Positions 4,004-36,468 of a stretch of DNA of 58,944 bases are shown in pieces. The position numbers and the translations under genes were made by a program. Below the pieces are notes generated by a model, which worked only from the letters and a program-made list of their open reading frames with translations, did not search any database and was not told the origin of the DNA. Position 1 is the stretch's first letter, and the number at the start of each line of letters is the position of its first letter. This DNA comes from Phormidium sp. OSCR. GTDB lineage: Bacteria > Cyanobacteriota > Cyanobacteriia > Cyanobacteriales > Geitlerinemataceae. Location of the stretch: contig LJZT01000014.1 in assembly GCA_001314905.1 (NCBI GenBank), positions 1-58,944 of the forward strand, in the 5' to 3' direction.

Positions 4004-4654
4004 TTAAAGTGACTCATCTGGATTCACGACATGATAACGCTCGATGAGTGTTAGCCTTGTATTTAATGTAGAATACAGTTCATCAAATGTGACACAGTAG
4101 ATATGTTTCGAGTTCACCATTAATCGATCTCGTCGCCATCGAAGGCGATCCTGTTCTCGTGGTTGAAGGTCTTGAGAGCGGCCAATGATGAGCATTCCTT
4201 CATAACCGGCAAAATCTTTTCCAAAACGATAGGTAAACTCTCGTTCGTATTCTTGGGATGACAACTTCCAAAACCAATCTAACACCTGGCTAAACCCATG
4301 CTCAAAATGTCGAGACCAGTCGGGAGTCGATTTTGAGCCTTTAAATTGAAAAACGCTGTTTTCTGTGGCACCTTCAAATTCCACAAATCCGTACCAGCTA
4401 GAGTTTGAATCACCGACGACTAAATCTGCTTTAAAATCACCGAAAATGTCATATTCATAAGCAATTTTATCAAACTGATCTATGTATGGAAAATACGAGC
4501 CAATAAACGCTGATAGGTGCCTGCGCTCCCGGAAGAACGGCAGTACATCCCGTCTTTCCCTCAGTTCATTCTTATTGTCAAGATGTTGTTTTAGATCATC
4601 AAGTTCTTGCCGACATAGAGCTATATTTAAATCAATATCTTCAAAATATTTCAC
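4004..4654 (-). CDS. DUF4263 / Shedu-like protein
   Basis: A soluble 216-residue protein. The central segment, with FVEFEGA followed by FQFKGSKSTPDW and HFEHGFSQVLDWFWKL (about residues 90-130), matches the DUF4263 pattern as I remember it: a VE(F/I)E strand, a K/S-rich loop and an HA..Q..DW helix. DUF4263 is the PD-(D/E)xK-like nuclease domain of the Shedu anti-phage proteins. Here the second acidic motif is E-F-E rather than E-x-K, so nuclease activity is uncertain. Its start overlaps the upstream RelE-like gene by 4 bp (ATGA), showing translational coupling. The domain name is recognition from memory; the defence role is inference. Confidence 0.62.
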   Translation of the reverse strand: MKYFEDIDLNIALCRQELDDLKQHLDNKNELRERRDVLPFFRERRHLSAFIGSYFPYIDQFDKIAYEYDIFGDFKADLVVGDSNSSWYGFVEFEGATENSVFQFKGSKSTPDWSRHFEHGFSQVLDWFWKLSSQEYEREFTYRFGKDFAGYEGMLIIGRSQDLQPREQDRLRWRRDRLMVNSKHIYCVTFDELYSTLNTRLTLIERYHVVNPDESL

Positions 4655-9161: not shown

Positions 9162-10064
9162 ATGAAATCTACCACTATGTCTGCCGATTTTAATTTAGTT
9201 AAAGTCTCCCTCACCCCACCCCTCAAATGGGCGGGTGGGAAACGGTGGCTGGTGGATAGCCTGAAACCCTATTGGGCAAAACATTCGACAGGGCGGCTGG
9301 TTGAGCCATTTTGTGGTGGGTTGGCGATCGCCCTCGGACTCGCTCCAAAACAGGCTTTGCTCAATGACATTAACCCCCATTTAATTAACTTTTATTCTTG
9401 GATTCAGCAAGGACTCGACATTATCATTCAAACCAAAAATGACTCAAATACATACTATGAATATCGCAAAAACTTCAATTCTTTAATCACTCAAAAACAG
9501 GACAACACCGCCGAAGCTGCACAACTCTTTTACTACCTAAACCGAACCGGATTTAATGGCCTCTGTCGGTTCAACCGCAAGGGCCTGTTTAATGTGCCAT
9601 TTGGACGATATAAAAAAATAAACTATAAAACAGACTTTCGGGAGTATCAGCCCCTGTTCCGCCATTGGCAGTTTCAAAACTCAGATTTTGAGGACTTAGC
9701 CATCCAAGACGGAGATTTTATCTATGCCGATCCCCCCTATGACGTAGAATTTCGCCAATATTCCAGTGGTGGCTTCGGCTGGGAAGATCAAGAACGCTTA
9801 GCCCGTTGGCTGGCCGAGCAAGCGGTTCCGGTCATTGCCTCAAACCAAGCAACGGAGAGGATTTTAGCCTTGTACCAGCATCATGGCTTCGAGGTGAAAA
9901 CCCGGCCCGCCCCGCGTCGCATCAGTTGCAACGGCGATCGCCGCCCCGCCCAAGAGATGGTCGCGTTTAAAAACATCGACCGAGAATTGCGGCCATCGTC
10001 TGGCCTGCCACCCGCCAATTTAGACGCTGCTCATACTCACGACGGGCTTGATAGGCAAGATTGA
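9162..10064 (+). CDS. DNA adenine N6-methyltransferase, Dam/D12 class
   Basis: The layout is that of D12-class (alpha) adenine methyltransferases: an N-terminal LKWAGGKRWL (AdoMet-binding, about residue 20), the VEPFCGGLAIAL motif I region (about 46) and catalytic DPPY in IYADPPYDVEF (about 190). It is an orphan, with no restriction gene nearby. Close relatives in cyanobacteria methylate GATC, the core of the abundant HIP1 octamer, so GATC is the likely target (inference). The conserved fold should end near EMVAFKNI, but the frame runs about 28 residues further and overlaps the 3' end of the convergent glycosyltransferase by 98 bp. An internal ATG six codons in (MSADF) is an alternative start. 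Confidence 0.92.
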   Translation: MKSTTMSADFNLVKVSLTPPLKWAGGKRWLVDSLKPYWAKHSTGRLVEPFCGGLAIALGLAPKQALLNDINPHLINFYSWIQQGLDIIIQTKNDSNTYYEYRKNFNSLITQKQDNTAEAAQLFYYLNRTGFNGLCRFNRKGLFNVPFGRYKKINYKTDFREYQPLFRHWQFQNSDFEDLAIQDGDFIYADPPYDVEFRQYSSGGFGWEDQERLARWLAEQAVPVIASNQATERILALYQHHGFEVKTRPAPRRISCNGDRRPAQEMVAFKNIDRELRPSSGLPPANLDAAHTHDGLDRQD

Positions 10065-11142
10065 GATAGCGATCGCGCTCCTCAAACAACTCCTGGACAT
10101 ACCTCGACGCTCCCTCAACAAACTCATGGCGAGGAAACGTCCGTCCATTGCGATCGTTCTCTACAATCGTCGGGATGCCATCAACCGCCGTCGCCAAAAC
10201 CGGAACCCCAAAGGCATTGGCTTCACAGAGAACATTGCCATAGGTTTCGGCTTCCGAGGGTAATACTAGCAGGTGCGATCGCTCAAACAATTCCGCCATC
10301 GCCATGGCCCCCGCCTCACTGAACTTGTCAATAAAGCCGACTGAGCTGACATACGACAACGCCTCAACCTCTTGAGGAACCCGCCCCCCCACCAAAGTCA
10401 GTTGAGTGGGAATCCCCTGCTGGTTCAGCCGCCCCGCCATCGCCACCGCCAAATCGCCCCCCTTCCGTTGCCAATCTACCCCCACAAACAGTAAATTTAG
10501 AGTTGCCTCAGAGCGTTGGGCGATCGCCGTCTTCACCCGCTCTAAACTCGGCTCATCCGCTAAATTCGCCCCATAGGGAACCACATCAATACACTCTCTG
10601 GGGACAGCATATTGCTCATGGGCATTATCCGCCGCCCAATGAGAGGGAAAAACAAAACGCTGGCAAGTTTTTACCGATTGGCGATCGAAATCTTTAAATC
10701 CTCGAATCGTCTCCCCACAGAGATTCTGATAATCAGGATAACGATCTAACAACGGCGTAAACAAATTCGTGGCCCAGAGAATCACCGGGACATCTACCCG
10801 TAACTGAGAGACTAACGTCGTATCAGAGCCAATAATTAAATCAACCGGGTCATTCCGTAACCGCTCTTGAATTTGTTTTGCCAACGAAGCGCCCAAATGG
10901 GGCGTTGCCCAATGCACATAGCGTTGCTTGCAGACCGACTCATACCACCAACGTTTGACGTTAACCTGACGGTTACGCCAAGGAGACAGTTGATAATCCA
11001 ATGCACAAATATAGTTAACCTCAGCAAAGGATTCTAAACTTTTTGCCTTATTGTAATTCGTATAAATAAAACCATACTCCGAGCGAGTCCAACTTTGCGG
11101 GTTCAACAAATCAAAATAGTTTAAATAGGCAACTTTCATCAT
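9967..11142 (-). CDS. GT4-type glycosyltransferase
   Basis: A 391-residue GT-B fold protein. The C-terminal half has LLFVGVDWQRKGGDLAV (donor-domain start), LVLPSEAETYGNVLCEANAFGVPVLA with the EX7E-type signature (E-AETYGNV-LCE), and a following DGIPTIVEN loop. These are hallmarks of the GT4 group that uses nucleotide-sugars. The N-terminal acceptor domain (YLNYFDLLNPQSWTRSEYGF) is not diagnostic. It is transcribed away from the sulfotransferase cluster, which begins 157 bp from its start, so both may share a divergent control region. Its last 98 bp overlap the methylase gene tail to tail. Role in polysaccharide assembly is inferred from context. Confidence 0.85.
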   Translation of the reverse strand: MMKVAYLNYFDLLNPQSWTRSEYGFIYTNYNKAKSLESFAEVNYICALDYQLSPWRNRQVNVKRWWYESVCKQRYVHWATPHLGASLAKQIQERLRNDPVDLIIGSDTTLVSQLRVDVPVILWATNLFTPLLDRYPDYQNLCGETIRGFKDFDRQSVKTCQRFVFPSHWAADNAHEQYAVPRECIDVVPYGANLADEPSLERVKTAIAQRSEATLNLLFVGVDWQRKGGDLAVAMAGRLNQQGIPTQLTLVGGRVPQEVEALSYVSSVGFIDKFSEAGAMAMAELFERSHLLVLPSEAETYGNVLCEANAFGVPVLATAVDGIPTIVENDRNGRTFPRHEFVEGASRYVQELFEERDRYLNLAYQARREYEQRLNWRVAGQTMAAILGRCF

Positions 11143-11299: not shown

Positions 11300-14200
11300 A
11301 TGTCCCTCGTTTCTGTAATCTGTACCGCGTTCCCGACGGACTTAGACTCAGCCGAAACCCGAGCGAGTCTGGAGTCGGTTTTGGCGGGAACCTATCAAGA
11401 GTTTGAACTAATTTGTATCGGAGCGAGGGAGACTGAGAGCGTCTCAGAGCCACTCGACGACTCACGATTACGCTGGATTGACCCCTCCCCAAACAGCAAT
11501 TTAACAGTCCTTGAGCAAGCCGTGGCCCAGAGTCGAGGCGAGCTGATTACCTGGATTCAGCCGGGAGATCGTTGGCAGCGAGAGAAACTGAGCCGACAGG
11601 TGGCCGCCTTGGCCGCCGCTGACGACCCTCAGACGGCGATCGCGACCAGCAAAGTCTCTCAGGATGGCAACCCCCTCCCCATCCCCACCATCCCCCCAGA
11701 CGCTCCCTCAGCAACACTCTATGACGCTCTGCGGCTCTACTACCATTGGCAAACCTTATCAAATCCCCTGATTCGCCGGGAAGCCTGGTTGGCCGTAGCT
11801 GGGGAGAGATTAGAACTTGAGGAATCCGACCTCTTCTGCGGCGGCTGGCGGCTGGCTGTGGCCTTGACTGAACAATTCCAGGCCATCACCCTCGACGAGA
11901 CGTTAGTGGAACTGGCCCCCTGGACCAGCCCAACTTTGAGCCAATGGCAACAGTTGCGACAAGCCTTAGAGGAAACCCTCGCCACCCTGGTCACTCCAGA
12001 GGACCCGCCAGACCTTCAGAGCAAGGCTCAACATAACCAATACAAGTATCTCTTGGCCCGTGCCTTGTGCGATTCCCTGACCCCAGACCTGGCCGCTGAA
12101 CTGCCACCTATTCTTAAAACTCTGTATCAAGATGACCCCAGTATCCAACATGAGGGAGCGTTAATTGTCGAGACCTACCGACGATTGGCCACGGGAGACC
12201 GCTTAAACCTCAGCCATCGCTGGTTCGCTACCCTGCAAGTGACCCCCACACCGCTGATTACGGTGGTTGTCCCTGTTTACAACGGCGAAGCGACCATCGC
12301 GGCCACGATCGACTCGGTGTTGGAGCAAACTTTCACTGATATTGAACTACTCATCATCGACGATGGTTGTACCGATAATACGGCGGCGATCGTCGATCGC
12401 ATCAGCGACTATCGACTGCGACGGCTGGCCTACGACAATGCTGGACTGGCGGCGAGTCGTAATCGGGGCTTACAGGAGGCGCGGGGAACTTATATTTCCT
12501 TTATCGATGCTGATGATCTCTGGCATCCCCGGAAGCTAGAGGCTCAATATCAACAGTTGACCTGTCCCCCCGAGACTCACGCCAATCTGCGATCGCTCTA
12601 CGGTGTGGCCTACAGTTGGACCGACTATATTGATGAGTCCGGCAACGTCCTCAAAGCCGGCAGTCATCTGACCCTCGACGGTGATGCGTTGGCTCATTTG
12701 CTACTGGCGGATTTCCTTGAAAGTGGCTCTAATGCCCTAATTCGCACGGAGGCCGCTCGCCAGGTGGGGGGATTTGATGAGTCTCTCCCCGCTGCCGAGG
12801 ATTGGGACTTTTTCCTGAAACTGGCCCGCCGTTATTTCTTTGTCTGTGTCCCCGAAGCTCAGGTTTATTATCGGGTTAGCGCCAGTTCCATGTCCTCGAA
12901 GTTGCAGCAACAGGAAACAGCCTGTCTAACGGTGTTAGAACGGGCGTTTAGGGATGCCCCACAAGCCCTACAGACCCTGCGATCGCAAAGTTTTACCAAT
13001 CTGTACCAATACCTCAGTTATCGCGCCTTACAGCCTCCCCTAACCCCGGAAAACTGCCGCCTGGCGTTGGGGTTTTTGCAAAACATCGAACGTTGGGACC
13101 CTCAAGCTCACCGCTACCAAACCCTACTGACGGACTTACAAACCCTCTGCCGTATTTACCAGGATAATGCTCCCCGCCTGGCGACTCGTCTGTGTGAGGC
13201 GGGTTCACTGGCACCTCAGGTTGAAGATCTCTTCCAACACACGCGATCGCGTCCCTATCCCGCCATCTCCGTCATTATCCCCGCCTACAACGCCCAAGAC
13301 ACCATCGGCGAAACCCTAGAATCAGTTTTAGCTCAAACCTGGACTGACTTTGAAATTATCGTCATCGATGATGGTTCAACGGATAACACCGTCGCCGCCG
13401 TCAAGGCGATCGACGACCCTCGCCTCAAACTCTTCTCTTACCCCAATGCGGGCCAGGGAGAAAGTCGTAATCGCGGCGCGTGTCACGCCATCGGAGAGTT
13501 TTTCGCCTTCCTAGATTCCGATGACCTCTGGACCCGAGATAAACTTGAATCCCAATATCGCGCCATCGTCGATTGGCAGCCTCCGGCCGCTGCTGAATCC
13601 CTTTATCAGACCCGTCAGCCGGCGATCGCCTATAGTTGGGTCGATTGGATTGATATCTCGGGCCGCTTTCTCCAGCGCGGTTGTGAGTACACCAGCAATG
13701 GCTATGTGTATCCTAAACTTTTGCTAAGTGATTTCATTGCTGGCGGTTCCAATGCGATGATGTGGCGGGGTGCGTTTTATCAAGTTCGGGGGTTTAATCC
13801 TGATTTTCCTCCGGCCGAAGATCGAGATATGTGGTTGCGGCTGGCGGAGAAGTTTCATTTCGTGGCTGTGGAGAAGCCTCAGTTGCGCTATCGACAGGTT
13901 CCCACCTCCCAATCGGCGAATGTCGTGCGCATGGAGCGATCGCAATTGCGAGTTTTAGAAGCCGCCTTTGAACGCGCACCTGAGGTTCCACCCTTTGCCA
14001 AAACCCCAGAGTATCTGCCGGCCTATCGCGCCCAAACCTACGCCAACTCCTATAAATATCTCACCTTCAAAGCCCTAGAGGGAGACCCGAAACCGCAACA
14101 AGGCCGGTTAGCCATACGACTGTTTTGGACAGTGCTACAGTATGAACCTCAACTCTGGCAAGAACGCCGTTTTGTGATTAAACTCTGGCTACGGATTCTC

Positions 14201-14323
14201 ATCACCGCTTTTTGTCCCCCAGCTTGGACTCAATCGGTGTTACAACGATTTCCCACCTTTCCCCGATTACATGGGGATTTGTTGGGATACACCAAAATGG
14301 ATGTTCCGATGGATGTGTCGTGA
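11300..14323 (+). CDS. Multi-domain GT2 glycosyltransferase
   Basis: This 1007-residue protein is built from three GT2-like units. Residues 1-120 look like a degraded GT-A fold (MSLVSVICTAFPTD..., WIQPGDRW in place of the metal site). The second unit begins near residue 317 (ITVVVPVYNGEATI, LLIIDDGCTDNT, SFIDADDLWHP) and the third near 652 (ISVIIPAYNAQDTI, IVIDDGSTDNT, AFLDSDDLWTR). Units two and three keep the nucleotide-binding Asp and the DxD-type site. The C-terminal halves share an Ala-Glu-Asp-(W/R)-D acceptor region. No membrane segment is obvious, so it should act at the cytosolic face on a growing chain, possibly adding two alternating sugars. It is probably the first gene of the cluster and has an ATG start. 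Confidence 0.88.
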   Translation: MSLVSVICTAFPTDLDSAETRASLESVLAGTYQEFELICIGARETESVSEPLDDSRLRWIDPSPNSNLTVLEQAVAQSRGELITWIQPGDRWQREKLSRQVAALAAADDPQTAIATSKVSQDGNPLPIPTIPPDAPSATLYDALRLYYHWQTLSNPLIRREAWLAVAGERLELEESDLFCGGWRLAVALTEQFQAITLDETLVELAPWTSPTLSQWQQLRQALEETLATLVTPEDPPDLQSKAQHNQYKYLLARALCDSLTPDLAAELPPILKTLYQDDPSIQHEGALIVETYRRLATGDRLNLSHRWFATLQVTPTPLITVVVPVYNGEATIAATIDSVLEQTFTDIELLIIDDGCTDNTAAIVDRISDYRLRRLAYDNAGLAASRNRGLQEARGTYISFIDADDLWHPRKLEAQYQQLTCPPETHANLRSLYGVAYSWTDYIDESGNVLKAGSHLTLDGDALAHLLLADFLESGSNALIRTEAARQVGGFDESLPAAEDWDFFLKLARRYFFVCVPEAQVYYRVSASSMSSKLQQQETACLTVLERAFRDAPQALQTLRSQSFTNLYQYLSYRALQPPLTPENCRLALGFLQNIERWDPQAHRYQTLLTDLQTLCRIYQDNAPRLATRLCEAGSLAPQVEDLFQHTRSRPYPAISVIIPAYNAQDTIGETLESVLAQTWTDFEIIVIDDGSTDNTVAAVKAIDDPRLKLFSYPNAGQGESRNRGACHAIGEFFAFLDSDDLWTRDKLESQYRAIVDWQPPAAAESLYQTRQPAIAYSWVDWIDISGRFLQRGCEYTSNGYVYPKLLLSDFIAGGSNAMMWRGAFYQVRGFNPDFPPAEDRDMWLRLAEKFHFVAVEKPQLRYRQVPTSQSANVVRMERSQLRVLEAAFERAPEVPPFAKTPEYLPAYRAQTYANSYKYLTFKALEGDPKPQQGRLAIRLFWTVLQYEPQLWQERRFVIKLWLRILITAFCPPAWTQSVLQRFPTFPRLHGDLLGYTKMDVPMDVS

Positions 14324-14380
14324 AAGGCTTGACCTTAACGTCCACTCAACTGCAACTTGCTTAACCTAGACCGTTTAACC

Positions 14381-15997
14381 ATGAAAGCGAAAATTAAATC
14401 ACAATTACGGCGGGGTCGGACTTGGTTAACGACTCGTCCACGGCAATTGAAGTCGGTCTATTGGCGGGTTTTAACTCGCATTCACCCTAACAATCCTTGG
14501 CCCCATTATCATTTGGCTAAACTTCAACTACAGCAGCAACAGTGGTCTGAGGCTGAGGCATCATTTCGTCGTTGTCTTGCGTTGGATAAAACGATCGCCC
14601 TCGCTCACCATGAGTTAGGAGATGTCCTGCAACAACAGGGAAAATTTGAGGCGGCGGCGGCGGCATATCGGCAGGCGATCGCCCTCAATCCAGAGTTTTC
14701 TTGGTCCCATCATAACTTAGGGGATGCTCTCGGACATCAACAAGACTATCAGGGTGCAATTAACGCCTATAAAGAGGCAATAAAACTCGCCCCCAATTGC
14801 TTTGAAAGTCATCATAATTTGGCTAAAACGTATAGTACGTTAAACCAGTGGTCAGCGAGTGCTAAGGCGTATCAAAACGCAATTGAAGTCTCAGCAAAAT
14901 CCCAAAATCCTCCCTTTCAACTGTTGTATGACTACGCCGGGGTATTATTACGTCTCAACGATACCTCAACCTTGAGTCAAGTTTATCTAAAAACTATCGA
15001 AGTTAATCCCGAATTTTCTTGGTTTTATCACTTTATTTTTTGGAGAACTCTCAAAGCTGAACAGCAACTTCCTGAGGCAGAAGCAGCCTATAAACAAGCA
15101 TTAAAAAAACATCCCAACAGCACCGAAGTTTATATTAATTTAGGGGAAGCCTTCAGCCATCAAGACAAAATCAGTGAGGCTCTACCCTACTATAAACAGG
15201 CCTTGCAACGTCAATTAGCAAAGCCTTACCCAGAATTAGCAAAATTGTGTGAGGCTAATCCAGACAGAACCGACCTCAAAACAAAGCCAGATTTTATTAT
15301 TTTAGGGGCGCAAAAAGCGGGAACTAGCTCCCTCTATATGTATTTAACACAACATCCGAATATCATTCCCGCACTTCGCAAAGAAGTTGAATTTTGGTCC
15401 TGGAAATACCGACGAGGTCATGATTGGTACTTTGCTCATTTTCCGCCGCTACCCGAAGCAGGAAAATTTCTAACGGGGGAAGCCTGTCCTGGATATTTGG
15501 ACTTTTACGTGACACCAGAACGAATCCGCGAATTTCTGCCCAATGTCAAATTTATGGTGTTGTTCAGAAATCCCGTAGATCGGGCGATTTCTCACTATTA
15601 TCACTGGGTGCGACGACAACAAGAAACCTTACCCTTGCCCGAGGCGATCGCCGCCGCCAAACAGGAATTAGAAAACCAAGGAAATGCCTGGGATTTACCC
15701 AGTAATTATCTCGCCCGAGGGATATACGTCGAATTTATCCAACATTGGTTTTCATTATTTCCCCGTGAGCAGTTCCTGTTCCTCGAAAGTGAAGCGTTTT
15801 ATCAAAACCCCTCTGCCAGTCTTCAGGAGGTTTATCAATTCCTAAACCTCGACGCTCATCCCCTAACCGACCATCGGAAATACAATGCTGGGTCCTATCG
15901 ACCGGCAGAGGCAGACATTCGTCAAGAACTACAAGCCTTTTATAAGCCCTATAACCAGAAGTTACAAGCCTTACTCGATTGTGAGTTTAGCTGGTAA
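14381..15997 (+). CDS. TPR-sulfotransferase fusion 1
   Basis: Residues 35-300 are tetratricopeptide repeats (NPWPHYHLAKLQLQQQQW, AHHELGDVLQQQGKFEAAAA, SHHNLGDALGHQQDYQGA and others). Residues 305-538 form a PAPS-dependent sulfotransferase: 5'-phosphosulfate loop GAQKAGTSSLY (about 308), the RKEVEFWSWKYRRGHDWY block and the 3'-phosphate motif RNPVDRAISHYYH (about 394). The KE..FW and DWY text resembles the heparan-sulfate sulfotransferase group, so a polysaccharide acceptor is plausible. I take the ATG at 14381; an upstream TTG would add eight residues. It lies 57 bp after the large GT2 gene and is followed 43 bp later by a second sulfotransferase. Confidence 0.9.
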   Translation: MKAKIKSQLRRGRTWLTTRPRQLKSVYWRVLTRIHPNNPWPHYHLAKLQLQQQQWSEAEASFRRCLALDKTIALAHHELGDVLQQQGKFEAAAAAYRQAIALNPEFSWSHHNLGDALGHQQDYQGAINAYKEAIKLAPNCFESHHNLAKTYSTLNQWSASAKAYQNAIEVSAKSQNPPFQLLYDYAGVLLRLNDTSTLSQVYLKTIEVNPEFSWFYHFIFWRTLKAEQQLPEAEAAYKQALKKHPNSTEVYINLGEAFSHQDKISEALPYYKQALQRQLAKPYPELAKLCEANPDRTDLKTKPDFIILGAQKAGTSSLYMYLTQHPNIIPALRKEVEFWSWKYRRGHDWYFAHFPPLPEAGKFLTGEACPGYLDFYVTPERIREFLPNVKFMVLFRNPVDRAISHYYHWVRRQQETLPLPEAIAAAKQELENQGNAWDLPSNYLARGIYVEFIQHWFSLFPREQFLFLESEAFYQNPSASLQEVYQFLNLDAHPLTDHRKYNAGSYRPAEADIRQELQAFYKPYNQKLQALLDCEFSW

Positions 15998-16040
15998 GTT
16001 CAACAGGATCATCCTCAACCATGGCCACCCCAAATTTCCT

Positions 16041-17234
16041 ATGAAACTCTCCCCCTTCCTCCATCGACTCAGGGGAAACCTAAGCCTTCTCTATCATCAA
16101 ATCACCTCCCCCAATACCGCCGAGCAACCCCTCGATGACATTGCCCTACAACTGCTGCAACAGCACAAGCAAGAAGCCGCATTAGCCGCCTTCTCTCGGG
16201 CAATTCAAGCTAAACCTAACCAAGATTGGCTGAGCCGTTTCCAACTCTGGGCTATCCTGGAACAGCCCCATCAACCGGGTATCGCCGCCTGGGGAGAAAG
16301 ACTCGTGGATATCCTCGAAACCCTCGCCCAACAGCATCCCCAGGAGCGAACCTGCGCCTTAAACCTCGCCGAAGCCCTAACCCGCCTCGGACAGTTCCAG
16401 GCCGCCCGTCCCTGGTATCGTCGCGCGGTGGAAAACCGCCTCAAGCGCGATCGCCCCGATTTAGCCCATCTCCAACCCCATCTCCAGCTTGGTTCAGCCC
16501 CATCTAGCCCCCAGTTCACCATCATCGGCGTCATGAAAGGGGGAACCACCTCCCTGTACCATTACCTCAGTCATCATCCCCAGATTGTCCCGAGCGCCCG
16601 CAAAGAAATTGATTTTTGGTCTTGGCGATATCAACGGGGATTAGACTGGTATCTAGCCCATTTTGCCTCACTACCCGATTCCGGCACTTACATCAGCGGC
16701 GATGCCAGTCCCACCTATTTTTCCCATCAAAACGCGCCCCAACGGCTGGCTCAAACCTATCCCAACATGAAAATCGTAGCCGTGTTGCGGAACCCCGTTG
16801 ACCGTACCATTTCTCACTACCACCATGCCTGTCGTGAAGGGGTTGAACAGCGGTCTCTAGGGGACGCCTTGCGATCGCACCGTCAGCAACTCGACAGCAA
16901 CAGCCATGACCCCAACAAACTCAATAACTACCTCGCCAGCAGCCTCTATGTTCCCCCCCTAACCCGCTGGTTTTCCTGTTTCCCGCGCCAGCAAATTCAC
17001 ATTATCTTTAGCGAAACCCTGTTCCAACAGCCTCAAGCGACCCTAGATCGTCTCTGTGAGTTTTTAGACATTCCATCCTACTCCCTCCCCTCAGCCACCA
17101 ACCGCAATCCCGGTCAATACCAACCCAGTGACCCCGATATTCGTCAGGAGCTGCAAGCCTTCTTTGAACCCCATACTCGTCAACTCCAAGAGTTACTTGA
17201 GATATCCCTACCCGAGGAACATATTAACCCCTAA
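16041..17234 (+). CDS. TPR-like/sulfotransferase fusion 2
   Basis: A 397-residue protein. About 150 residues of helical repeat (ALQLLQQHKQEAALAAFSRA, CALNLAEALTRLGQFQAARP) precede the sulfotransferase domain. The PAPS loop is GVMKGGTTSLYHYL (about 162), the second block RKEIDFWSWRYQRGLDWY and the 3'-phosphate site RNPVDRTISHYHH (about 249). The loop retains the lysine that contacts the sulfate donor. The start is the ATG at 16041, in frame with a longer ORF whose 5' part overlaps the preceding gene and looks non-coding. Shared text with the neighbouring sulfotransferases shows that they are paralogues. Confidence 0.9.
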   Translation: MKLSPFLHRLRGNLSLLYHQITSPNTAEQPLDDIALQLLQQHKQEAALAAFSRAIQAKPNQDWLSRFQLWAILEQPHQPGIAAWGERLVDILETLAQQHPQERTCALNLAEALTRLGQFQAARPWYRRAVENRLKRDRPDLAHLQPHLQLGSAPSSPQFTIIGVMKGGTTSLYHYLSHHPQIVPSARKEIDFWSWRYQRGLDWYLAHFASLPDSGTYISGDASPTYFSHQNAPQRLAQTYPNMKIVAVLRNPVDRTISHYHHACREGVEQRSLGDALRSHRQQLDSNSHDPNKLNNYLASSLYVPPLTRWFSCFPRQQIHIIFSETLFQQPQATLDRLCEFLDIPSYSLPSATNRNPGQYQPSDPDIRQELQAFFEPHTRQLQELLEISLPEEHINP

Positions 17235-17274
17235 CCTGGCCCTATAACCTGGCTTACTCCCCCTAATTCTCACT

Positions 17275-19092
17275 ATGCGCACCCGTCACCTCTTAGACTT
17301 TGAATCCGAACGTGTCATTCACCTCGGACGGGCGATCCAAATTGTCTGGAATAGCGGTCCCTGGTGGACTGTCGCCCGCAGCAGTATCACCATCACCAAA
17401 AGCTGCATTCCCATCACGCGGCTTTACATCATGAAGCTGCTCCTCGACAACATCACCACGGGCTTTGATGCCGGCAACCCCGAAGATGCCTTTCGTCGCA
17501 TCGCTCCCCTGGTGATTGCGATGGGTTTGGTGAACCTAGCCGCCGCTTTCCTTACCTCCGTTGGCCGCCTCGTCAATCAATATCAGCAACAAGTCGTCTC
17601 CGATCGCCTCTACGAGATTATCCACGATAAAGCCATCACCGTCGATCTCGAACATTACGAAAATCCCAGCTACTACGACATCCTCGAACGCGCCCGTAAT
17701 GAAGCCAACAACGTCCCCATGCGGCTGCTCAATCGCCTAGAGCAAATTGGTAGTAACCTCGTACAACTGGCCACCATGGGCGGGACTCTCCTCAGCTTCA
17801 ACTGGCTCATTGGTGGCGTTTTGATTATTCCCGTCATTCCTCGAATTCTGGTTCGCTTAGCCTTCGTCCGCGAGATTCACGCCTGGTTGCAACGACGGAC
17901 GGCCACCCAACGGGAAGCCTCCTATTACAACAGCTTAATTGTTAGTGATAATTACGCGAAAGAAATTCGCCTCTTTCAACTCGGTGAACTCTTCTCCCGC
18001 CGCTTTCGGAAATTGCGTTGGCGACTGCGGGAAGAACGGCTGCAAATCGCCCTGCGTCGCGCCTCGGCGGACTTTTTTACGACCCTTATTTCTGTCGTCG
18101 CAACCTGGGGGATTTATGCTTATATTGCCTATCAAACGGTTCAGGGCAATATCACTGTTGGTGACTTGGTCTTGTATAACCAAGCCTTCCGTAAAGCCTA
18201 TGATGCCCTTTGGCAAGTCCTTCAAGGGGTTGCAGGTCTTTACGAAGATAATCGTTATCTGGCTTATTTATTTGAATTTCTCAACATTAAACCGAGAATT
18301 GTCGATCCAGCGTCCCCACAGCCGATTCCGTCTCCTATGAAAGAGGGGATTTCGTTTAACAATGTTGACTTCAATTACCCGAATAGTCAACGGGAAGCCA
18401 TTAAAAATGCGTCATTTCATATCAAACCTGGAGAAGTGATTGCTCTCGTTGGAGAAAATGGCTCGGGCAAAACAACCTTAATTAAACTTCTTTGCCGTCT
18501 GTATGACCCCACAGAAGGTCAAATCCTCATGGATGGTATTGATTTACGAGAGTTGAAAGTTCGGGACCTGCGCCAGCAAATTAGCGTTATCTTCCAAGAC
18601 TATGCTAAATATCACCTAACCGCTCGTGAAAATATCTGGCTGGGAAATCTTGAATGTCCCTCCGACGATGAACGCATTATTAAAGCGGCAAAACGATCGG
18701 GGGCAGATGAAGTTATTGAAACGCTGCCTTTAGGCTATGATAATTTGCTAGGAAAACGCTTTGCAACGGGAGAAGAACTCAGTATTGGTCAATGGCAAAA
18801 GCTATCTATTGCGCGGGCGTTTCTCCGCGACTCTCAGGTGATTGTTCTCGATGAACCCACGTCAGCTCTCGATCCTAAAGCAGAGTATGAGGTGTTTAAA
18901 AAGTTTCGGGAATTGTTGGAAGGACAATCGGCGGTTTTGATTACTCATCGCCTATCGACGGTTAAAATGGCGGACAGGATTTATGTTTTAGATAAGGGGT
19001 GTATTGTTGAATCGGGGTCTCATGATGAGTTGATTGATAAGCAGGGTCTTTATGCGACGTTGTTTGAAACCCAAGCTCGTAACTATCGGTAG
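17275..19092 (+). CDS. ABC exporter half-transporter (MsbA/ABCB type)
   Basis: Residues 1-330 form a six-helix membrane domain (ITRLYIMKLLLDNITTGFD..., FNWLIGGVLIIPVIPRILV, TTLISVVATWGIYAYIAY). Residues 340-605 are the nucleotide-binding domain with Walker A GENGSGKTT (about 392), signature LSIGQWQ (about 501; canonical LSGGQ changed to LSIGQ), Walker B VIVLDEP (about 522) and H-loop THRLST. It should work as a homodimer in the inner membrane. Its place between sulfotransferase genes suggests export of a lipid-linked or oligosaccharide product of this cluster. Peptide or lipid substrates cannot be excluded from sequence. Confidence 0.92.
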   Translation: MRTRHLLDFESERVIHLGRAIQIVWNSGPWWTVARSSITITKSCIPITRLYIMKLLLDNITTGFDAGNPEDAFRRIAPLVIAMGLVNLAAAFLTSVGRLVNQYQQQVVSDRLYEIIHDKAITVDLEHYENPSYYDILERARNEANNVPMRLLNRLEQIGSNLVQLATMGGTLLSFNWLIGGVLIIPVIPRILVRLAFVREIHAWLQRRTATQREASYYNSLIVSDNYAKEIRLFQLGELFSRRFRKLRWRLREERLQIALRRASADFFTTLISVVATWGIYAYIAYQTVQGNITVGDLVLYNQAFRKAYDALWQVLQGVAGLYEDNRYLAYLFEFLNIKPRIVDPASPQPIPSPMKEGISFNNVDFNYPNSQREAIKNASFHIKPGEVIALVGENGSGKTTLIKLLCRLYDPTEGQILMDGIDLRELKVRDLRQQISVIFQDYAKYHLTARENIWLGNLECPSDDERIIKAAKRSGADEVIETLPLGYDNLLGKRFATGEELSIGQWQKLSIARAFLRDSQVIVLDEPTSALDPKAEYEVFKKFRELLEGQSAVLITHRLSTVKMADRIYVLDKGCIVESGSHDELIDKQGLYATLFETQARNYR

Positions 19093-19222
19093 TTCTTTGA
19101 AGGGTTGGATTAGACCCAGATGAAACGTATCGTCGAGATGTGATACCTTCAGAGTTGATTGGATAACATCGTTCGCTAATATTATCTACTAACATCAGCC
19201 ACTAGGATTAGGAGTAAAACTG

Positions 19223-20443
19223 TTGAGAGAACTAATTAAAAAACTAAAAAATTGGCAGTCGTTCAAAACACTGTTTCAGACCCTGCGATCGCCACAATCA
19301 TCATCCTCAAATAGCCCCGCAAGTCCTGGAGACTCCCTAGAAGACTTATTAGAGTCTGCGGCGGCTCATCAGGCGTCCAACCAGCTAGAGGCGGCGGCCG
19401 AGATCTATCTAAACATTCTCAGGGATTATCCCAATAAAAGCTGGTGGTATAACCGACCACTCTGGGAGGTGTTGGAAAAGACAAATCGTTTGCAGACGGC
19501 GATCGCCATCCTAGACCAATCTAACGGACAGTCTGGCTCGGTTCAACCGGCGATCGCCCTCAACCTCGCTGAAGCACTCACCCGCCAGGGAGACAACCAA
19601 GCCGCCATCACTCACTACCAATCCGTGAGTTACGCCAAGTTCTCGAAATCCTATCCAAAACTCGTCGAAACCGCTTGGACAGAGACTCCGTTATCTCCCC
19701 AATTTATCATTATTGGTGCAGCAAAATCGGGAACAAGCGCCCTCTATAGTTATCTCGCCTCCCATCCTAAAGTTTTGCCGGCTGTTGTCAAGGAAATCAA
19801 CTTTTGGTCCCATCGCTTTCAACAGGGTTTGCCTTGGTATCAGTCTCATTTTCCCGCTATCTCCGAAGAGATTGCTAAACAACAAGGATTGATGACAGGA
19901 GAAGCCAGTCCCAGTTACTTCGCTCATCCTGACGCACCCCAACGAATTAAACAGGCCTATCCCAACATTCGCTTAATTGTCAGCCTACGCAACCCAGTGG
20001 ATCGAACCATCTCTCACTATTATGATCGAGTGCGTCGTCGTCAAGAGATGCGACCCTTAGATGTGGCAATTTATGAAAGTTTAGCGGGTAACTCTAGCCC
20101 ATCTACCTCAGTTGATTTTGTCCCTGATTATTTACGAGAAAGTTGCTATAGTGTCAATCTTAAGTCTTGGTATTCCCACTTTGAAGCTGAGCAAATCTAT
20201 GTCATTAAAAGTGAGAATTTACTCAATCAACCTGCCGCCACCAGCCAGTCTGTTTTTGAGTATCTTGGTTTGCCCAATCATCAACTTCGTCACTATCGAA
20301 AATACAATGTCGGCAACTATAAAGCCTCGGAGTCTATGATAGACCATGACTCGGATGTTAAATTGAGAGCTGCTCTAAGAGACTATTTTAAGGAAGATAT
20401 CGAGCAACTTAAAGAGATAATCGGCTCAGAACTTACTTGGTAA
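19223..20443 (+). CDS. TPR-like/sulfotransferase fusion 3
   Basis: The frame opens with TTG at 19223, preceded by TAGGAG at a good distance, which decides this unusual start. It has 406 residues. The N-terminal 150 residues carry repeat-like text (LEAAAEIYLNILRDYPNKSW, ALNLAEALTRQGDNQAAITH). The sulfotransferase domain has PAPS loop GAAKSGTSALYSYL (about 164), VKEINFWSHRFQQGLPWY and RNPVDRTISHYYD (about 255). A stop followed by a second in-frame TAA ends it 30 bp before the next gene. It is a paralogue of genes 14381, 16041 and 20474. The acceptor sugar is not readable. Confidence 0.9.
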   Translation: MRELIKKLKNWQSFKTLFQTLRSPQSSSSNSPASPGDSLEDLLESAAAHQASNQLEAAAEIYLNILRDYPNKSWWYNRPLWEVLEKTNRLQTAIAILDQSNGQSGSVQPAIALNLAEALTRQGDNQAAITHYQSVSYAKFSKSYPKLVETAWTETPLSPQFIIIGAAKSGTSALYSYLASHPKVLPAVVKEINFWSHRFQQGLPWYQSHFPAISEEIAKQQGLMTGEASPSYFAHPDAPQRIKQAYPNIRLIVSLRNPVDRTISHYYDRVRRRQEMRPLDVAIYESLAGNSSPSTSVDFVPDYLRESCYSVNLKSWYSHFEAEQIYVIKSENLLNQPAATSQSVFEYLGLPNHQLRHYRKYNVGNYKASESMIDHDSDVKLRAALRDYFKEDIEQLKEIIGSELTW

Positions 20444-20473
20444 TAAAAACGCAGCAAAAACGTCGCAAAAACT

Positions 20474-22123
20474 ATGTCGTTAGTCACGATATTATCCGAA
20501 GGGTTGATTAAGAAAATGGCAATACAAACCAAAACAAAGCTCACGGTACTCGGCTGTCATCTGAAAATGAAGTTGGGATATCAAGCGAAAGAAGCTGCTC
20601 GCTGGCTGTTACAGTTTTATCAACAGCAGAATGACCTAGAAGCTGTTTTAGACATCTATGAGGAGGCATCCACTCTTAATTCCGACAATGAAACGCTCTT
20701 ACTTGAATGCGCCGATTTTTTGTGCCAGCGACAACAAGATCGCCAAGCAATTTATCTATATCAAAAAATTATCGCCATCAATCCTTCTCTGTTTTTGGCT
20801 TATCGTAACTTAGGAAATCTTTTGGTGAAGCAGCTTCGTTGGCAAGAGGCAGAACAAGCCTATAAAAAAGGAATTAAACTTCTCAATACTCCCTCGGTTT
20901 TTATTTATCGAAAACTCGCAAAAACTTTAGCTCAGCAGCAGCGATGGTTAGACGCTCTATCGGCATATGAAAAAGCTTGGGATTGCCAAGATGAAATTTA
21001 TCAGGTATTACAGGATTGTAAATCTCAGATTGAGCAGGGGTGTGAGACTTGGGAGACTTATTTTCTCTTGTTTCAAACCTTAGCAGAAGCGAATCAATGG
21101 ACGGGTGCGATCGCCGCTTGGTGGCAAGCGATTACACTCGATCCTTATCAACCCTGGTGGTGGCAGGAACGTTGTCTAACACTCTCAAAGACCTACCATA
21201 AATTAAACGAATTAGAAACCCTATTTAAACAAAAATTCAAGAACAATCCGGGTGAATTAGATCTAGGGCTGAATCTAAGTGCTGTTCTTGAACAGCAAGG
21301 TCGTATGGAAGAAGTTTGTACCACCCATCAAGACATTGCAAATTATAAACTAAAACAACGTTACCCTAAGCTATCACCTCAAACCCCTCTAAAATCGCCC
21401 CAAGTCAATTTTACAATTATTGGGGCTCAAAAAAGTGGCACGTCTTCACTTTACTATTACTTAGAAGAACATCCAGATATCTCCGTTTCCATCAAAAAAG
21501 AACTTCATTTTTGGTCTCTCCATTATGAGAAAGGCCAAAACTGGTATCGATCGCACTTCTTACCCATTCCAGAGGGTAAATTTTGGCGAACGGGTGAAGC
21601 GAGTCCCACCTATCTCGACTCTCCCGAAACCCCGGAACGGATGTATCGAGAGTTCCCCGACATGAAACTAATTGTTTTACTGCGTAATCCTGTCTCTCGT
21701 GCCATTTCCCACTATCATCACTGGGTTCGACTCAAAAAAGAGTGTCGTCCTCTTGACATTGCCTTGACTGAACAACTTGCAGAAATTCCCGATTGGGACG
21801 ATGTTATTTCCCTTCGCAATCACTACATCGCTCGGGGCTGCTATGTCAAATTTCTAGAAAAATGGCTCCGCTTTTTTCCTCGTGAACAAATACTGGTTAT
21901 CTCTAGTGAACTCTTCCAAGACCATCCCTCAGACATTGTACAAACAGTCCATTCCTTTCTCGAAATTCCCCGCAAGCCTTTGGAAAACTTGGAGTATTAC
22001 AATGTAGGCGAGTATAACTTTGAAAATCCGAGCTTAAAATCGCAACTGCAAGACTTTTATGCTCCCTACAATCAAGACTTAGAGAAATTATTAGACCAAT
22101 CCTTTCCCTGGACAACACTATGA
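20474..22123 (+). CDS. TPR-sulfotransferase fusion 4
   Basis: A 549-residue protein. Residues 30-300 are TPR-type repeats (LLLECADFLCQRQQDRQAIY, AYRNLGNLLVKQLRWQEAEQ, ALSAYEKAWDCQ). The sulfotransferase domain starts near 310 with PAPS loop GAQKSGTSSLYYYL (about 316), then IKKELHFWSLHYEKGQNWY and RNPVSRAISHYHHW (about 403). A second in-frame ATG (MAIQTKTK, residue 17) is a possible start. The gene follows number 3 by 30 bp and precedes a GT2 gene by 28 bp, so they are in one operon. It is closest in text to fusion 1, suggesting two long and two short paralogues. Confidence 0.9.
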   Translation: MSLVTILSEGLIKKMAIQTKTKLTVLGCHLKMKLGYQAKEAARWLLQFYQQQNDLEAVLDIYEEASTLNSDNETLLLECADFLCQRQQDRQAIYLYQKIIAINPSLFLAYRNLGNLLVKQLRWQEAEQAYKKGIKLLNTPSVFIYRKLAKTLAQQQRWLDALSAYEKAWDCQDEIYQVLQDCKSQIEQGCETWETYFLLFQTLAEANQWTGAIAAWWQAITLDPYQPWWWQERCLTLSKTYHKLNELETLFKQKFKNNPGELDLGLNLSAVLEQQGRMEEVCTTHQDIANYKLKQRYPKLSPQTPLKSPQVNFTIIGAQKSGTSSLYYYLEEHPDISVSIKKELHFWSLHYEKGQNWYRSHFLPIPEGKFWRTGEASPTYLDSPETPERMYREFPDMKLIVLLRNPVSRAISHYHHWVRLKKECRPLDIALTEQLAEIPDWDDVISLRNHYIARGCYVKFLEKWLRFFPREQILVISSELFQDHPSDIVQTVHSFLEIPRKPLENLEYYNVGEYNFENPSLKSQLQDFYAPYNQDLEKLLDQSFPWTTL

Positions 22124-22151
22124 CAACACCATCATCATAATCGAGGACTCC

Positions 22152-23135
22152 ATGGTTCAAATTTCTGTCATTCTTCCCGTCTATAACGGCATGGAGACGA
22201 TCGCCGATACCATTAATTCAGTCTTAGGGCAAACCTTTAGAGACTTTGAACTAATTGTCATCGACGATGGCTCAACCGATGATACCCTATCCGTCGTTAA
22301 GGCGATCGCCGACGAGCGTATCCAAATCCATCAGTTTGCCAACGCTGGCCAGGGAGAAAGTCGCAATCGTGGTGTCGCCCTAGCTCAGGGAGACTATCTC
22401 TCTTTCATTGATGCCGATGACTTGTGGACTGCCGATAAACTCCAACACCAATGGCAGGCCTTACAAACCCATCCTCAAGCCGCCGTTGCCTACAGTTGGA
22501 CCGATCACATTGACGAAAACAACCAGTTTTTCAGAGCCGGCCCCCACCTCACCTTTTCCGGCGATGTCTATAAACTGCTCATCATCAGTGATTTTGTCGG
22601 CAGTGGGTCCAATGTTCTGATTCGCAAATCTGCCTTTGAAGCCGTAGGTGGATTTGCCCCGCGTCTCACCCCAGCCGAAGATTGGGATTTGTGGGTCCGA
22701 TTAGCGGCAAACTATGAGTTTGTGGTGGTTCCCCAAGTGCAAATTCTCTATCGAACCGTGACCTCGTCCTCGTCTTTTAATTTAGCCAAGATGGAAGCGT
22801 CGAGTTTACAGGTGATCGATCGCATTTTCGCCGCCGCTCCCCCCGAGTTACAACACCTATCTCGGATTTGTCGCGGTCATCGCTATAAGTATTTAACCTA
22901 TAAAGCCTTAGACTTAACCCCAGAACGACGGCGAGCTAGGGCAGCCTTTCGCTTTTTAGCCCTGGCCCTCTGGTATGACCCGAGTTTGTGGCGACGACGG
23001 GTGATTTGGAAGGTTCTGCTGCGAGCCACGGCGGGATGGCTACTCCCGCAAGCCTGGGCCAAGTCCCTACTGAGGCAAATCCCCAAACCCTTTGAAATTG
23101 AGGCGTTACTGTTTCATATCCGCTTTGACCCCTAG
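22152..23135 (+). CDS. GT2-family glycosyltransferase
   Basis: A 327-residue single-domain GT2. The N-terminal VQISVILPVYNGMETI, IVIDDGSTDDT and SFIDADDLWTADKL motifs give the nucleotide-sugar and DxD sites. The later PAEDWDLWVRLA block matches the acceptor region of the two intact units in the large GT2 gene at 11300, from which it may derive by duplication. No membrane helix is evident. It is the last gene of the cluster, ahead of a strong terminator. Confidence 0.9.
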   Translation: MVQISVILPVYNGMETIADTINSVLGQTFRDFELIVIDDGSTDDTLSVVKAIADERIQIHQFANAGQGESRNRGVALAQGDYLSFIDADDLWTADKLQHQWQALQTHPQAAVAYSWTDHIDENNQFFRAGPHLTFSGDVYKLLIISDFVGSGSNVLIRKSAFEAVGGFAPRLTPAEDWDLWVRLAANYEFVVVPQVQILYRTVTSSSSFNLAKMEASSLQVIDRIFAAAPPELQHLSRICRGHRYKYLTYKALDLTPERRRARAAFRFLALALWYDPSLWRRRVIWKVLLRATAGWLLPQAWAKSLLRQIPKPFEIEALLFHIRFDP

Positions 23136-23204
23136 GATGACTGGGGGACATGACCCAAAACGTCATAATAGCGTCATTTCTCCGTCACCTGCGATGGTTA
23201 TGCT

Positions 23205-23336
23205 AAGACTCAAGACGACGTGAAACGCTTGGGGAGACGCTTTTAACAGGTTTAGACGTGCTTCCCGGGTGTACTTGCTCGGCTCTATCCTAAAGGTTCC
23301 TACTGCTCCACCCGTCAGCGGGTGGGGCTTTTTTTT
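23205..23336 (+). ncRNA. Candidate small RNA or long 3' leader ending at the cluster terminator
   Basis: Between the last cluster gene and its terminator there is about 170 bp with no ORF. A -10-like TATGCT occurs at about 23199-23204, and the stretch ends in an intrinsic terminator, so an independent small transcript is possible. No -35 box is obvious and no known RNA family was recognised. It may equally be a plain 3' UTR. Confidence 0.25.
23306..23336 (+). terminator. Intrinsic terminator of the polysaccharide cluster
   Basis: CTCCACCCG (23306-23314) pairs with CGGGTGGGG (23319-23327) around TCAG and is followed by C and eight T residues. It stops plus-strand transcripts from the sulfotransferase cluster just before the convergent cytochrome gene. 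Confidence 0.85.
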
Positions 23337-23340
23337 GGCG

Positions 23341-24127: not shown

Positions 24128-25360
24128 ATGAATATTCTCATCTACGCTTATAACTATCATCCTGAACCCATTGGCATTGCCCCACTGATGACAGAACTGG
24201 CCGAAGGACTGGTGCAACGAGGCCATCACGTCCGCGTCGTCACCGGAATGCCCAATTACCCACAACGGCAAATCTATGAGGGCTATCGAGGCAAACTTTA
24301 TGTCACCGAGGAACGCAACGGCGTCAAAATCCAACGCTGTTTTGTCTGGGTTCGCCCCAAGCCGGGACTGGTCGATCGCATCCTCCTCGAAACCAGTTTT
24401 GTCGGCACCAGTTTTATCCAAGCCCTCAATGGTAAACGCCCTGATGTCATCTTACTGACGGTTCCGCCCTTACCTGCTTCCGTCCCCGCCACAGTGTTTA
24501 AGTGGATGCAACGGGCGCCGGTGGTGTTGAATTTACAAGATGTTCTCCCTGAAGCGGCGGTTGTGGCGGGGTTACTCACCAATAAAGCCCTAATTCGGGT
24601 CTTTGAATCTCTCGAACGATTTTCCTACCGTTACGCTAATCAAATTGCGGCAATTTCTGATGGATTTGTCGAGAATTTAATTAACAAAGGCGTGAATCCC
24701 GATAAAATCACCCTGATTCCTAATTGGGTTGATACCGACTTTATTCGTCCTTTGGATAAAGAGAATAATTCCTTTCGCCGAGAGCAAGGACTCGACGGAA
24801 AGTTTATCATTTTGTACTCCGGAAACATTGCCCTCACCCAAGGACTCGAAACCCTAATTCAAGCCGCCGCACAACTGTTAGATTTGCCCGATGTTGCCAT
24901 TGTTATCGTGGGCGAAGATCAGGCGTTAGGAGCATTGCGCGATCGCCGTGATGAAATTGGCGCGACGAATGTTAAACTCTTACCCTTTCAACCTCGCGAA
25001 CGCTTACCTGAGATGCTATCAGCCGCCAATGTGGGGATGGTGATGCAGAAAAAGACCGTCATTGCCATCAATATGCCCTCAAAAATCCAGGTGTTACTGG
25101 CCAGTGGCTTGCCAATTTTAGCCTCCGTTCCCGATGCTGGAACCGCCGCCAAAGCCGTTCAAACCAGTGGCGGCGGTTGGGTGGTTCCTCCTGAAGATCC
25201 CGAGGCGATCGCCCAAGCGATTCGTCAGCTTAAAGCCGCCCCAGATACCCTCGAACAACTGAGTCAACAGGGACGGCAATACGCCCTCGATAATTATTCG
25301 TTTTCCGAAGCCCTCGATCGCTATGAAACCCTCTTTCAAACCGTCATCCATGAATCTTAA
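24128..25360 (+). CDS. WcaI-like GT4 glycosyltransferase
   Basis: A 410-residue GT-B protein. The N-terminus MNILIYAYNYHPEPIGIAP, GMPNYPQ and LQDVLPEAAV are the text of the WcaI (colanic-acid type) glycosyltransferase family. The donor domain shows IILYSGNIALTQGLETL and a C-terminal MPSKIQVLLASGLPILAS loop in the place of the GT4 E-x7-E region. These enzymes transfer a sugar, often fucose in WcaI itself, to a lipid-linked intermediate at the cytosolic membrane face. It is a separate transcription unit downstream of the cytochrome, but its function fits the neighbouring polysaccharide cluster. The last codons and stop are tandemly repeated just after the gene. Confidence 0.88.
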   Translation: MNILIYAYNYHPEPIGIAPLMTELAEGLVQRGHHVRVVTGMPNYPQRQIYEGYRGKLYVTEERNGVKIQRCFVWVRPKPGLVDRILLETSFVGTSFIQALNGKRPDVILLTVPPLPASVPATVFKWMQRAPVVLNLQDVLPEAAVVAGLLTNKALIRVFESLERFSYRYANQIAAISDGFVENLINKGVNPDKITLIPNWVDTDFIRPLDKENNSFRREQGLDGKFIILYSGNIALTQGLETLIQAAAQLLDLPDVAIVIVGEDQALGALRDRRDEIGATNVKLLPFQPRERLPEMLSAANVGMVMQKKTVIAINMPSKIQVLLASGLPILASVPDAGTAAKAVQTSGGGWVVPPEDPEAIAQAIRQLKAAPDTLEQLSQQGRQYALDNYSFSEALDRYETLFQTVIHES

Positions 25361-26640: not shown

Positions 26641-26679
26641 TTGCCAGTGTTGATGAGAGGAACTGCCCCGTTCAATCCT

Positions 26680-29406: not shown

Positions 29407-29509
29407 GATGTAAGCGAGTCTATGCGAGTCGAATCGAGTCACCCTCAGGCGATGATGTCCCACACCCGGGTCCGGCTGCGCTTGCCCTGTAAGCGACCCC
29501 AAACGTTCC

Positions 29510-36274: not shown

Positions 36275-36321
36275 GATTTGTCATGGAATTTGTCATGGAA
36301 TTTGTCATGGGATTTATCATA
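36262..36321. repeat. Five tandem 12-bp units across a stop codon
   Basis: GGATTTGTCATA / GGATTTGTCATG / GAATTTGTCATG (two copies) / GGATTTATCATA follow one another. The first copy contains the last codons and TAG of the hybrid kinase, and later copies lie in the spacer. Confidence 0.8.
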
Positions 36322-36408
36322 ATCCTAAAGCAAACAGGAGTGATGGTGTTTGACCCCTGTCTTCTCAAGTAAACTCATCTACGTTAACCATGAATATGAC
36401 CTAAAGTT

Positions 36409-36434: not shown

Positions 36435-36468
36435 TCTGTTGAACACCCAACTTAAGCTCCCAAGGATT

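Follow-up and report, generated by a model that had tools for sequence, protein, structure and literature searches.

A compact gene cluster in the cyanobacterium Phormidium sp. OSCR may direct the synthesis of a short sulfated glycan in the cytosol, which a peptide-type exporter turned to a new use would then carry over the inner membrane; we find this reading plausible and advance it tentatively. The cluster lies in the stretch analysed here (the window: 58,944 nucleotides of contig LJZT01000014.1, designated C26, one of 187 contigs in a 4.69-Mb genome rated 100% complete). Seven plus-strand open reading frames were confirmed between positions 11300 and 23135 (Table 1), encoding two family-2 glycosyltransferase (GT2) proteins, four sulfotransferases and one ATP-binding cassette (ABC) exporter; their coordinates and Pfam families agree with those of a preliminary description of this DNA, and PF00685 scores over its cut-off in all four proteins that the description had called sulfotransferases. 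Because the same gene set recurs in related genomes of its family, which consists of filamentous cyanobacteria, the arrangement is not a product of chance.

The sulfotransferases, ST1 to ST4, are all fused to tetratricopeptide repeats (TPR), and they make up four of the nine PF00685 matches in the genome, all four falling within 6.7 kb. As originally listed, ST2 overlaps ST1; a start at 16041, probably the true one, abolishes the overlap and yields a protein of 397 aa, against 396 aa for an ortholog. The presumed loop for 3'-phosphoadenosine 5'-phosphosulfate (PAPS), a Lys-Glu pair and RNPxxRxxSHY, a presumed 3'-phosphate motif, are kept in all four, and ST1 residues K320, G322, T323, K342, E343, R404, P406, R409 and S412 are invariant in 21 of 21 aligned sulfotransferases of the family. 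A tree of 27 sulfotransferase domains resolves four lineages, of ST1 (9 rows, support 96/96), ST2 (4 rows, 99/96), ST3 (5 rows, 100/100) and ST4 (5 rows, 98/98), with one sulfotransferase of genome G291 left unplaced. The ST1 lineage spans the family, and a paralog belonging to it lies on a different contig of the source genome; the other three are patchily present.

What these enzymes sulfate is suggested by their relatives. Among solved sequences matching the ST2 domain at E <= 0.1, 13 of 14 are heparan-sulfate sulfotransferases, the remaining one being 3rnl, an uncharacterised bacterial sulfotransferase. The AlphaFold model of ST1 (pLDDT 91.8) shows a 3-OST/NDST-like domain after an OGT-like TPR superhelix. 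In a structure search, of which we consider the best 50 of 547 matches at E <= 0.001, the target TM-scores for the matches of this domain to 3rnl, 3-O-sulfotransferases and NDST are 0.70-0.78. Since the sulfotransferases thus resemble heparan-sulfate sulfotransferases in both sequence and predicted fold, their acceptor is likely a sugar, and we regard the case for this as strong.

The exporter has a different kind of ancestry. It matches PF00005 over the cut-off and PF00664 under it (23.5 against 28 bits), and the label 'MsbA-type' in the preliminary description is correct for the broad ABC class but not for the closer kinship: the MsbA equivalog model scores 297.7 bits against a cut-off of 602 (PglK, 134.7 against 1000), and the nearest relatives outside the family reside in lasso-peptide clusters. 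MsbA was ruled out as the closest relative on the strength of this score and because the membrane part alone matched nothing solved at E <= 0.001. With the whole exporter as query, 339 distinct solved sequences match at E <= 1e-20, ABCB1/ABCB4 first; since the membrane part alone finds none, it is the ATPase part that accounts for these matches. Among 291 cyanobacterial genomes drawn for comparison, the nearest outside relatives share 45-56% identity with the exporter, and most of them sit in clusters that contain PqqD, Transglut_core3, Asn_synthase and an HPr-kinase-like protein; passages in PMC5067487 and PMC7533575 give the lasso set as B1, B2, C and a kinase. In a 53-row exporter tree the 12 family rows group together (100/100), are joined by locus L037 of genome G127 (100/99), and with it are nested in a 34-row clade (98/99) that contains all 18 rows labelled as ribosomally synthesized and post-translationally modified peptides (RiPPs), the root being weak (75/67). 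An 89-row tree with an outgroup, for which the program warned of long outgroup branches meeting, again unites the 12 family rows (SH-aLRT 100) and adds L037 (99), both inside a 53-row clade (96) with 37 RiPP rows. By these trees the exporter descends from the lasso-peptide exporter lineage.

The neighbourhoods of named exporter loci, of which 69 were found, 61 examined and 58 counted (three lacked a full exporter frame), follow the same division. The six loci at 850 bits or more, whose genomes are not independent of family genomes G298, G297, G291, G292, G300 and G118, comprise four with a sulfotransferase, one with a GT2 only and one on a cut contig, and carry no lasso markers. At 640-850 bits (49-55% identity), 28 of 35 loci have one or more lasso markers within 11 kb, six have none and one has only a kinase/nucleotidyltransferase; a sulfotransferase occurs at 0 of the 35. 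Lasso markers adjoin two of 16 loci at 540-640 bits, a sulfotransferase none of them, and one lower-scoring locus has neither; all of these marker counts are minima, as some contigs are short. L037, the sister of the family exporter, lies in a cluster with PqqD, Transglut_core3, an HprK-like protein, an epimerase, GT2 and GT4, and might represent a step between peptide and glycan clusters. It is one of four such loci: L037, L044, L047 and L048 combine PqqD, Transglut_core3, HprK-like, GT2, GT4, NTP_transf_5 and an ABC exporter (with an epimerase in L037 and L048), Asn_synthase is not labelled in the stretches examined, and perhaps they form a glycosylated RiPP class that does without a lasso cyclase. 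A second exporter group, at ~38-41% identity to the window exporter (L053 (G000:C54), L088, L085 and L071), includes a paralog in the source genome and has no lasso or sulfotransferase genes adjoining in the stretches examined.

Glycan assembly would fall to rather few catalytic units. GT2 models PF10111/PF00535 match both glycosyltransferases of the cluster, and the larger does hold the three GT2 units first ascribed to it, but unit 1, which matched no Pfam model and aligns with the single GT2 at E 4e-14, lacks the DxD motif: it reads IQPGDRW where the other units read FIDADDLW or FLDSDDLW, that is, QPGD in place of the DADD and DSDD of units 2 and 3. In relatives the same position reads QPGD (G298), EPGD (G299 and G002), GGER (G292) or an intact DADD (G118). 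Only three GT2 units in the cluster therefore have an intact DxD.

Comparison across cyanobacterial genomes, which the preliminary description had proposed, reveals that glycosyltransferases, sulfotransferases and exporter form a conserved cluster in the family. Of the 14 family genomes, 12 contain the exporter (E <= 1e-150), and the remaining two are assemblies of 540 and 350 contigs; a sulfotransferase lies close to the exporter in 10 of the 12 (the G297 contig begins at the exporter, and G118 has none). The order GT2x3-ST1-ST2-ABC-ST3-ST4-GT2 is common to the window and G298; G299 has GT2x3-ST3-ST1-ST2-ABC-GT2, G002 GT2x3-ST3-ST1-ST4-ABC-GT2, G291 GT2x3-three sulfotransferases-ABC-GT2, and G292 GT2x3-ST1-ST2-ABC-GT2. 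G066 keeps the gene order of G002, but its ST1 and GT2x3 appear fragmented; at this locus (L034, 12443-17497) the fragmentation, together with a repeated segment in ST1, would reflect decay or assembly errors. In G300 the exporter adjoins a GT4 and a sulfotransferase that is divergent and of a different type.

Divergence within the cluster is uneven. Between the window and G299/G002, identity is 90/90% for the exporter, 84/85% for the single GT2 and 88/90% for the downstream GT4 (24128), with the flanking Dam and DHC genes at 78/76% and 78/77%; it is 57/57% for GT2x3, 50/50% for ST1 and 69/69% for ST3, and 70% for ST4 against G002. G299 and G002 share 87% identity in GT2x3. The triple GT2 and the sulfotransferases thus appear to change faster than the exporter and flanks, as for a diversifying surface glycan, and rapidly changing builders beside a conserved exporter are what one would predict for a single exporter that handles sugar structures which vary.

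These features suggest a pathway in which the GT2 units, three of them with intact DxD, would build a short glycan in the cytosol, perhaps aided by the flanking GT4 enzymes; the glycan would probably be assembled on a lipid carrier, with the priming step encoded in another part of the genome. It would then be sulfated at different positions by up to four PAPS-dependent enzymes of heparan-sulfate-sulfotransferase type, and the exporter, acting as a homodimer, would move the finished sulfated unit over the inner membrane, filling the role that Wzx or Wzm/Wzt has in other sulfated-glycan systems. That the exporter moves a sulfated glycan is suggested by gene linkage; that the product is short and lipid-linked is a weak suggestion, and its presumed destination, the slime or outer surface, follows from general knowledge of such clusters. 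A bolder extension, possible but on balance doubtful, is that a single conversion, in the family ancestor, turned a lasso-peptide exporter into a sulfated-oligosaccharide flippase replacing Wzx where it is lacking, with the sulfotransferases as a separable, changeable sulfation code on a surface glycan.

Several observations weigh against a glycan-exporting cluster. The ancestry of the exporter points to peptides, and the net charge of its membrane domain does not set it apart from lasso exporters (mean 7.4 versus 6.5). Its sole clean charge change is a fixed Arg306, and Lys/Arg at 313, the column of MsbA Lys299, is replaced by Trp in the family. TPR parts, including that of the protein-modifying O-GlcNAc transferase, rank first among those best 50 of 547 matches to the ST1 model, so a protein acceptor is possible for the sulfotransferases. 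Among the seven genes, Pfam identifies none for a priming transferase, a polymerase or outer-membrane export. In G118, GT2 genes accompany the exporter with no sulfotransferase in the ~48 kb of contig examined; in G295 and G293 one sulfotransferase accompanies it with no GT2 beside (the G293 contig ends at the exporter). Neither partner is therefore obligatory. As to the exporter itself, changes fixed in the family in the membrane part include R49, R190, R306 and K307 and no acidic residue; R190 is common to L037, R49 is missing in L093 and K307 in L094, and the gains in other exporter clades number 2-6 basic and 2-5 acidic residues. A positive cavity was considered as a sign of a sulfated substrate and left unused as weak, given the similar net charge and the loss of Lys/Arg313. 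The exporter model (pLDDT 75.0, pTM 0.59) was not considered strong enough to support a fold search.

The alternatives differ chiefly in the size and chemistry of the product. The preliminary description spoke of a sulfated exopolysaccharide cluster, and 'sulfated-glycan cluster with exporter' is supported, by the conserved gene set and the carbohydrate-type sulfotransferases; a secreted polymer is not, the cluster having no polymerase, co-polymerase (as judged via its Pfam matches only), priming transferase or outer-membrane export gene, and no more than three GT2 units with DxD. It also stated correctly that the window holds no Wzx/Wzy gene: PF13440, PF04932, PF01943 and PF14667 are unmatched on the contig. 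The search that it suggested elsewhere in the genome yielded Wzy candidates and no Wzx, with PF13440, PF01943 and PF14667 unmatched over cut-off, though a flippase divergent from these models is possible. The sole PF13440 match in the source genome is sub-cut-off and MATE-like, namely MurJ; for PF14667 there is a single sub-cut-off match, to a frame of 157 aa, and for PF01943 none (it is over cut-off in two of the 14 family genomes, G118 and G300). PF13440 is over cut-off in eight of the 14, and in six of these the match is limited to profile positions ~135-284 in frames of 547-741 aa, like the source-genome MurJ; these six, which were not scanned singly, were taken from the match span as MurJ and rejected as Wzx. 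A long exopolysaccharide, sulfated in the manner of spirulan or synechan, with Wzy, polysaccharide co-polymerase (PCP) and outer-membrane polysaccharide export (OPX) parts encoded elsewhere and the exporter standing in for Wzx or serving as an ABC-pathway exporter, is a rather unlikely alternative. In its favour, the genome holds two priming transferases (PF02397) and two Wzy_C (O-antigen ligase/polymerase) proteins on other contigs, as well as one OPX protein, after which comes a CbiA-domain protein of 743 aa, taken as the co-polymerase; according to passages in the synechan paper in Sci Rep 2026 (PMC13125312), genes of these kinds are frequently scattered in cyanobacteria; and in Nostoc sp. 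C052 the same type of sulfotransferase adjoins an ABC permease and ATPase pair and large glycosyltransferases. Yet all of these priming, Wzy_C and OPX parts are unlinked to the cluster, Wzy_C is also a ligase family, and the single-chain exporter is unlike the known polymer type, Wzm/Wzt, though NdvA, the cyclic beta-1,2-glucan exporter, shares its layout.

A small sulfated glycolipid or lipo-oligosaccharide resembling a Nod factor (few glycosyltransferases, a sulfotransferase and an ABC exporter) would fit the small number of active GT2 units beside up to four sulfotransferases, and passages in PMC5395944 place the lipid flippase MsbA and the lipid-linked-oligosaccharide flippase PglK in the same exporter class; with no acyltransferase or lipid-modifying gene among the seven by Pfam, we consider it improbable. 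Least probable of all is a sulfated, glycosylated RiPP with its precursor encoded elsewhere and the exporter still moving peptides. The exporter's ancestry and the L037 cluster speak for it, and a passage in PMC8498205 reports putative sulfotransferase genes in some Firmicutes lasso clusters, but PqqD (B1), B2 and Asn_synthase (C) are absent from the scanned cluster proteins and, for PqqD and Asn_synthase, from their close neighbours (these two were not searched genome-wide), and the B2 protease family PF13471 has no match in the source genome. A lasso peptide was accordingly ruled out as the product there. PF13471 occurs in two of the 14 family genomes, G118 and G300, where its matches include loci adjoining separate lasso-type exporters, and in none of the other 10 exporter-holding genomes. 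In the intergenic gaps of the window, L089 and L055, read for a precursor peptide, the one conserved small frame seen has 18 codons (MTxNVI...) and lies at 23150-23206 (+), right after the single GT2; it is probably too short for a known lasso leader plus core. Similar in six genomes of the genus but not found downstream of the GT2 in G291 or G292, this frame shares its DNA in part with a conserved inverted repeat and conserved non-coding sequence; it may be regulatory DNA, not a gene.

Table 1. Features of the cluster and its immediate surroundings (positions in the window)
Feature	Position	Strand	Description
GT2x3	11300..14323	+	1007 aa; three GT2 units, DxD kept in units 2 and 3, not unit 1
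ST1	14357..15997	+	TPR superhelix and PF00685 sulfotransferase domain; most widespread sulfotransferase lineage of the family
ST2	16041..17234	+	sulfotransferase; start shifted from listed 15885
ABC exporter	17275..19092	+	605 aa; membrane and ATPase parts in a single chain; nested among lasso-peptide exporters
ST3	19223..20443	+	sulfotransferase; orthologs seen only within the genus
ST4	20474..22123	+	TPR and sulfotransferase
Single GT2	22152..23135	+	327 aa; FIDADDLW
Candidate small RNA	23204..23336	+	ends in terminator hairpin 23305-23328; kept in six genomes of the genus
GT4 glycosyltransferase	24128..25360	+	adjoins cluster in the genus; possible accessory
GT4 glycosyltransferase	9967..11142	-	divergent; common to G298, not found at the same place in G299 or G002; possible accessory

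The strong terminator said to close the cluster is present as a hairpin of 10 pairs, 8 of them G-C, followed by eight T, the top-ranking of 14 terminator-like sites (a number not above that in shuffles, mean 17.0), and 23290-23340 folds at -20.4 kcal/mol (z -2.98). Because the hairpin forms the 3' end of a conserved non-coding element, it may belong to a small RNA and perhaps not to the operon. The element lies between the single GT2 and the convergent DHC gene, with 84% mean column identity across the six genus genomes, and its sequence suggests a candidate gene for a small RNA of ~130 nt that may regulate the cluster or the DHC gene. Its fold is a long 5' stem-loop plus the terminator, in which 97.2% of cells pair; 4 of 36 pairs are changed on both sides, a count reached by 17 of 500 shuffles, with slid controls giving 0-1. 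An RNA model search of 29 sources matched only the six genomes from which the model was built, one copy each at 126-157 bits (8 rows including two duplicates), the next full-length match scoring 17.9 bits, and no Rfam family reached its gathering score (best sub-threshold, suhB at 24.1 against 41 and NsiR1 at 20 against 39). A conserved TGACA...TGTCA repeat and TGGTTATGCT, missing or altered in some rows, lie upstream.

Four consecutive histidine kinases (26641-37800, +) lie directly downstream of the cluster, the first, with GAF and PHY (phytochrome) domains, being retained next to it in the genus; clusters of the synechan type have the regulators XssQ, XssR and XssS. Elsewhere the window encodes a protein that shares the C-terminal domain of SduA, a Shedu defence protein (4004-4654, -), and a 1709-aa protein with zero Pfam matches at E <= 0.001 (40945-46074, +), which adjoins proteins whose N-termini look pilin-like by eye (46112-48763).

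To our knowledge, the export of sulfated glycans has been worked out for one cyanobacterial system, and we found no paper in the open PubMed Central literature on a cluster such as this, or tying a lasso-type exporter to a sulfated glycan. Passages in PMC8205485 describe sulfated glycans as rare in bacteria other than cyanobacteria, and the synechan (xss) cluster of Synechocystis 6803, treated there, likewise joins sulfotransferases and several glycosyltransferases in one sulfated-glycan cluster. It has Wzx, Wzy, PCP, a priming transferase, eight glycosyltransferase genes and two sulfotransferases; the window cluster, by contrast, has none of the first four, two glycosyltransferase genes with three DxD units between them, four sulfotransferases and the lasso-type exporter. 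Compared with the large xss set, this small one should be far easier to transfer to a laboratory strain; its natural variants carry zero to four sulfotransferases. Should the exporter indeed carry a glycan, it would be a peptide exporter that has switched to sugar, and G118, G295 and L037 would offer living intermediates for comparison.

Sulfated-glycan clusters of Wzm/Wzt type, such as that on plasmid pC052_D of Nostoc sp. C052, also place a TPR-sulfotransferase beside ABC genes and large glycosyltransferases, but their export needs a separate ABC-2 permease and ATPase, each with its own gene in Nostoc, where the window has one chain (PF00005 with sub-cut-off PF00664) of peptide-exporter descent. 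Lasso-peptide clusters (McjD/LasD) share the exporter lineage; instead of a B1, B2 or C protein or a precursor, none of which was found in the cluster, the window has sulfotransferases and GT2 units. With the PglK and MsbA flippases the exporter shares its broad layout, and the proposed flipping of a lipid-linked sugar would resemble that by PglK, yet it falls far under both equivalog cut-offs. Heparan-sulfate 3-O-sulfotransferases and NDST, finally, resemble the sulfotransferase domains in sequence and predicted fold, whereas the window enzymes are bacterial and TPR-fused.

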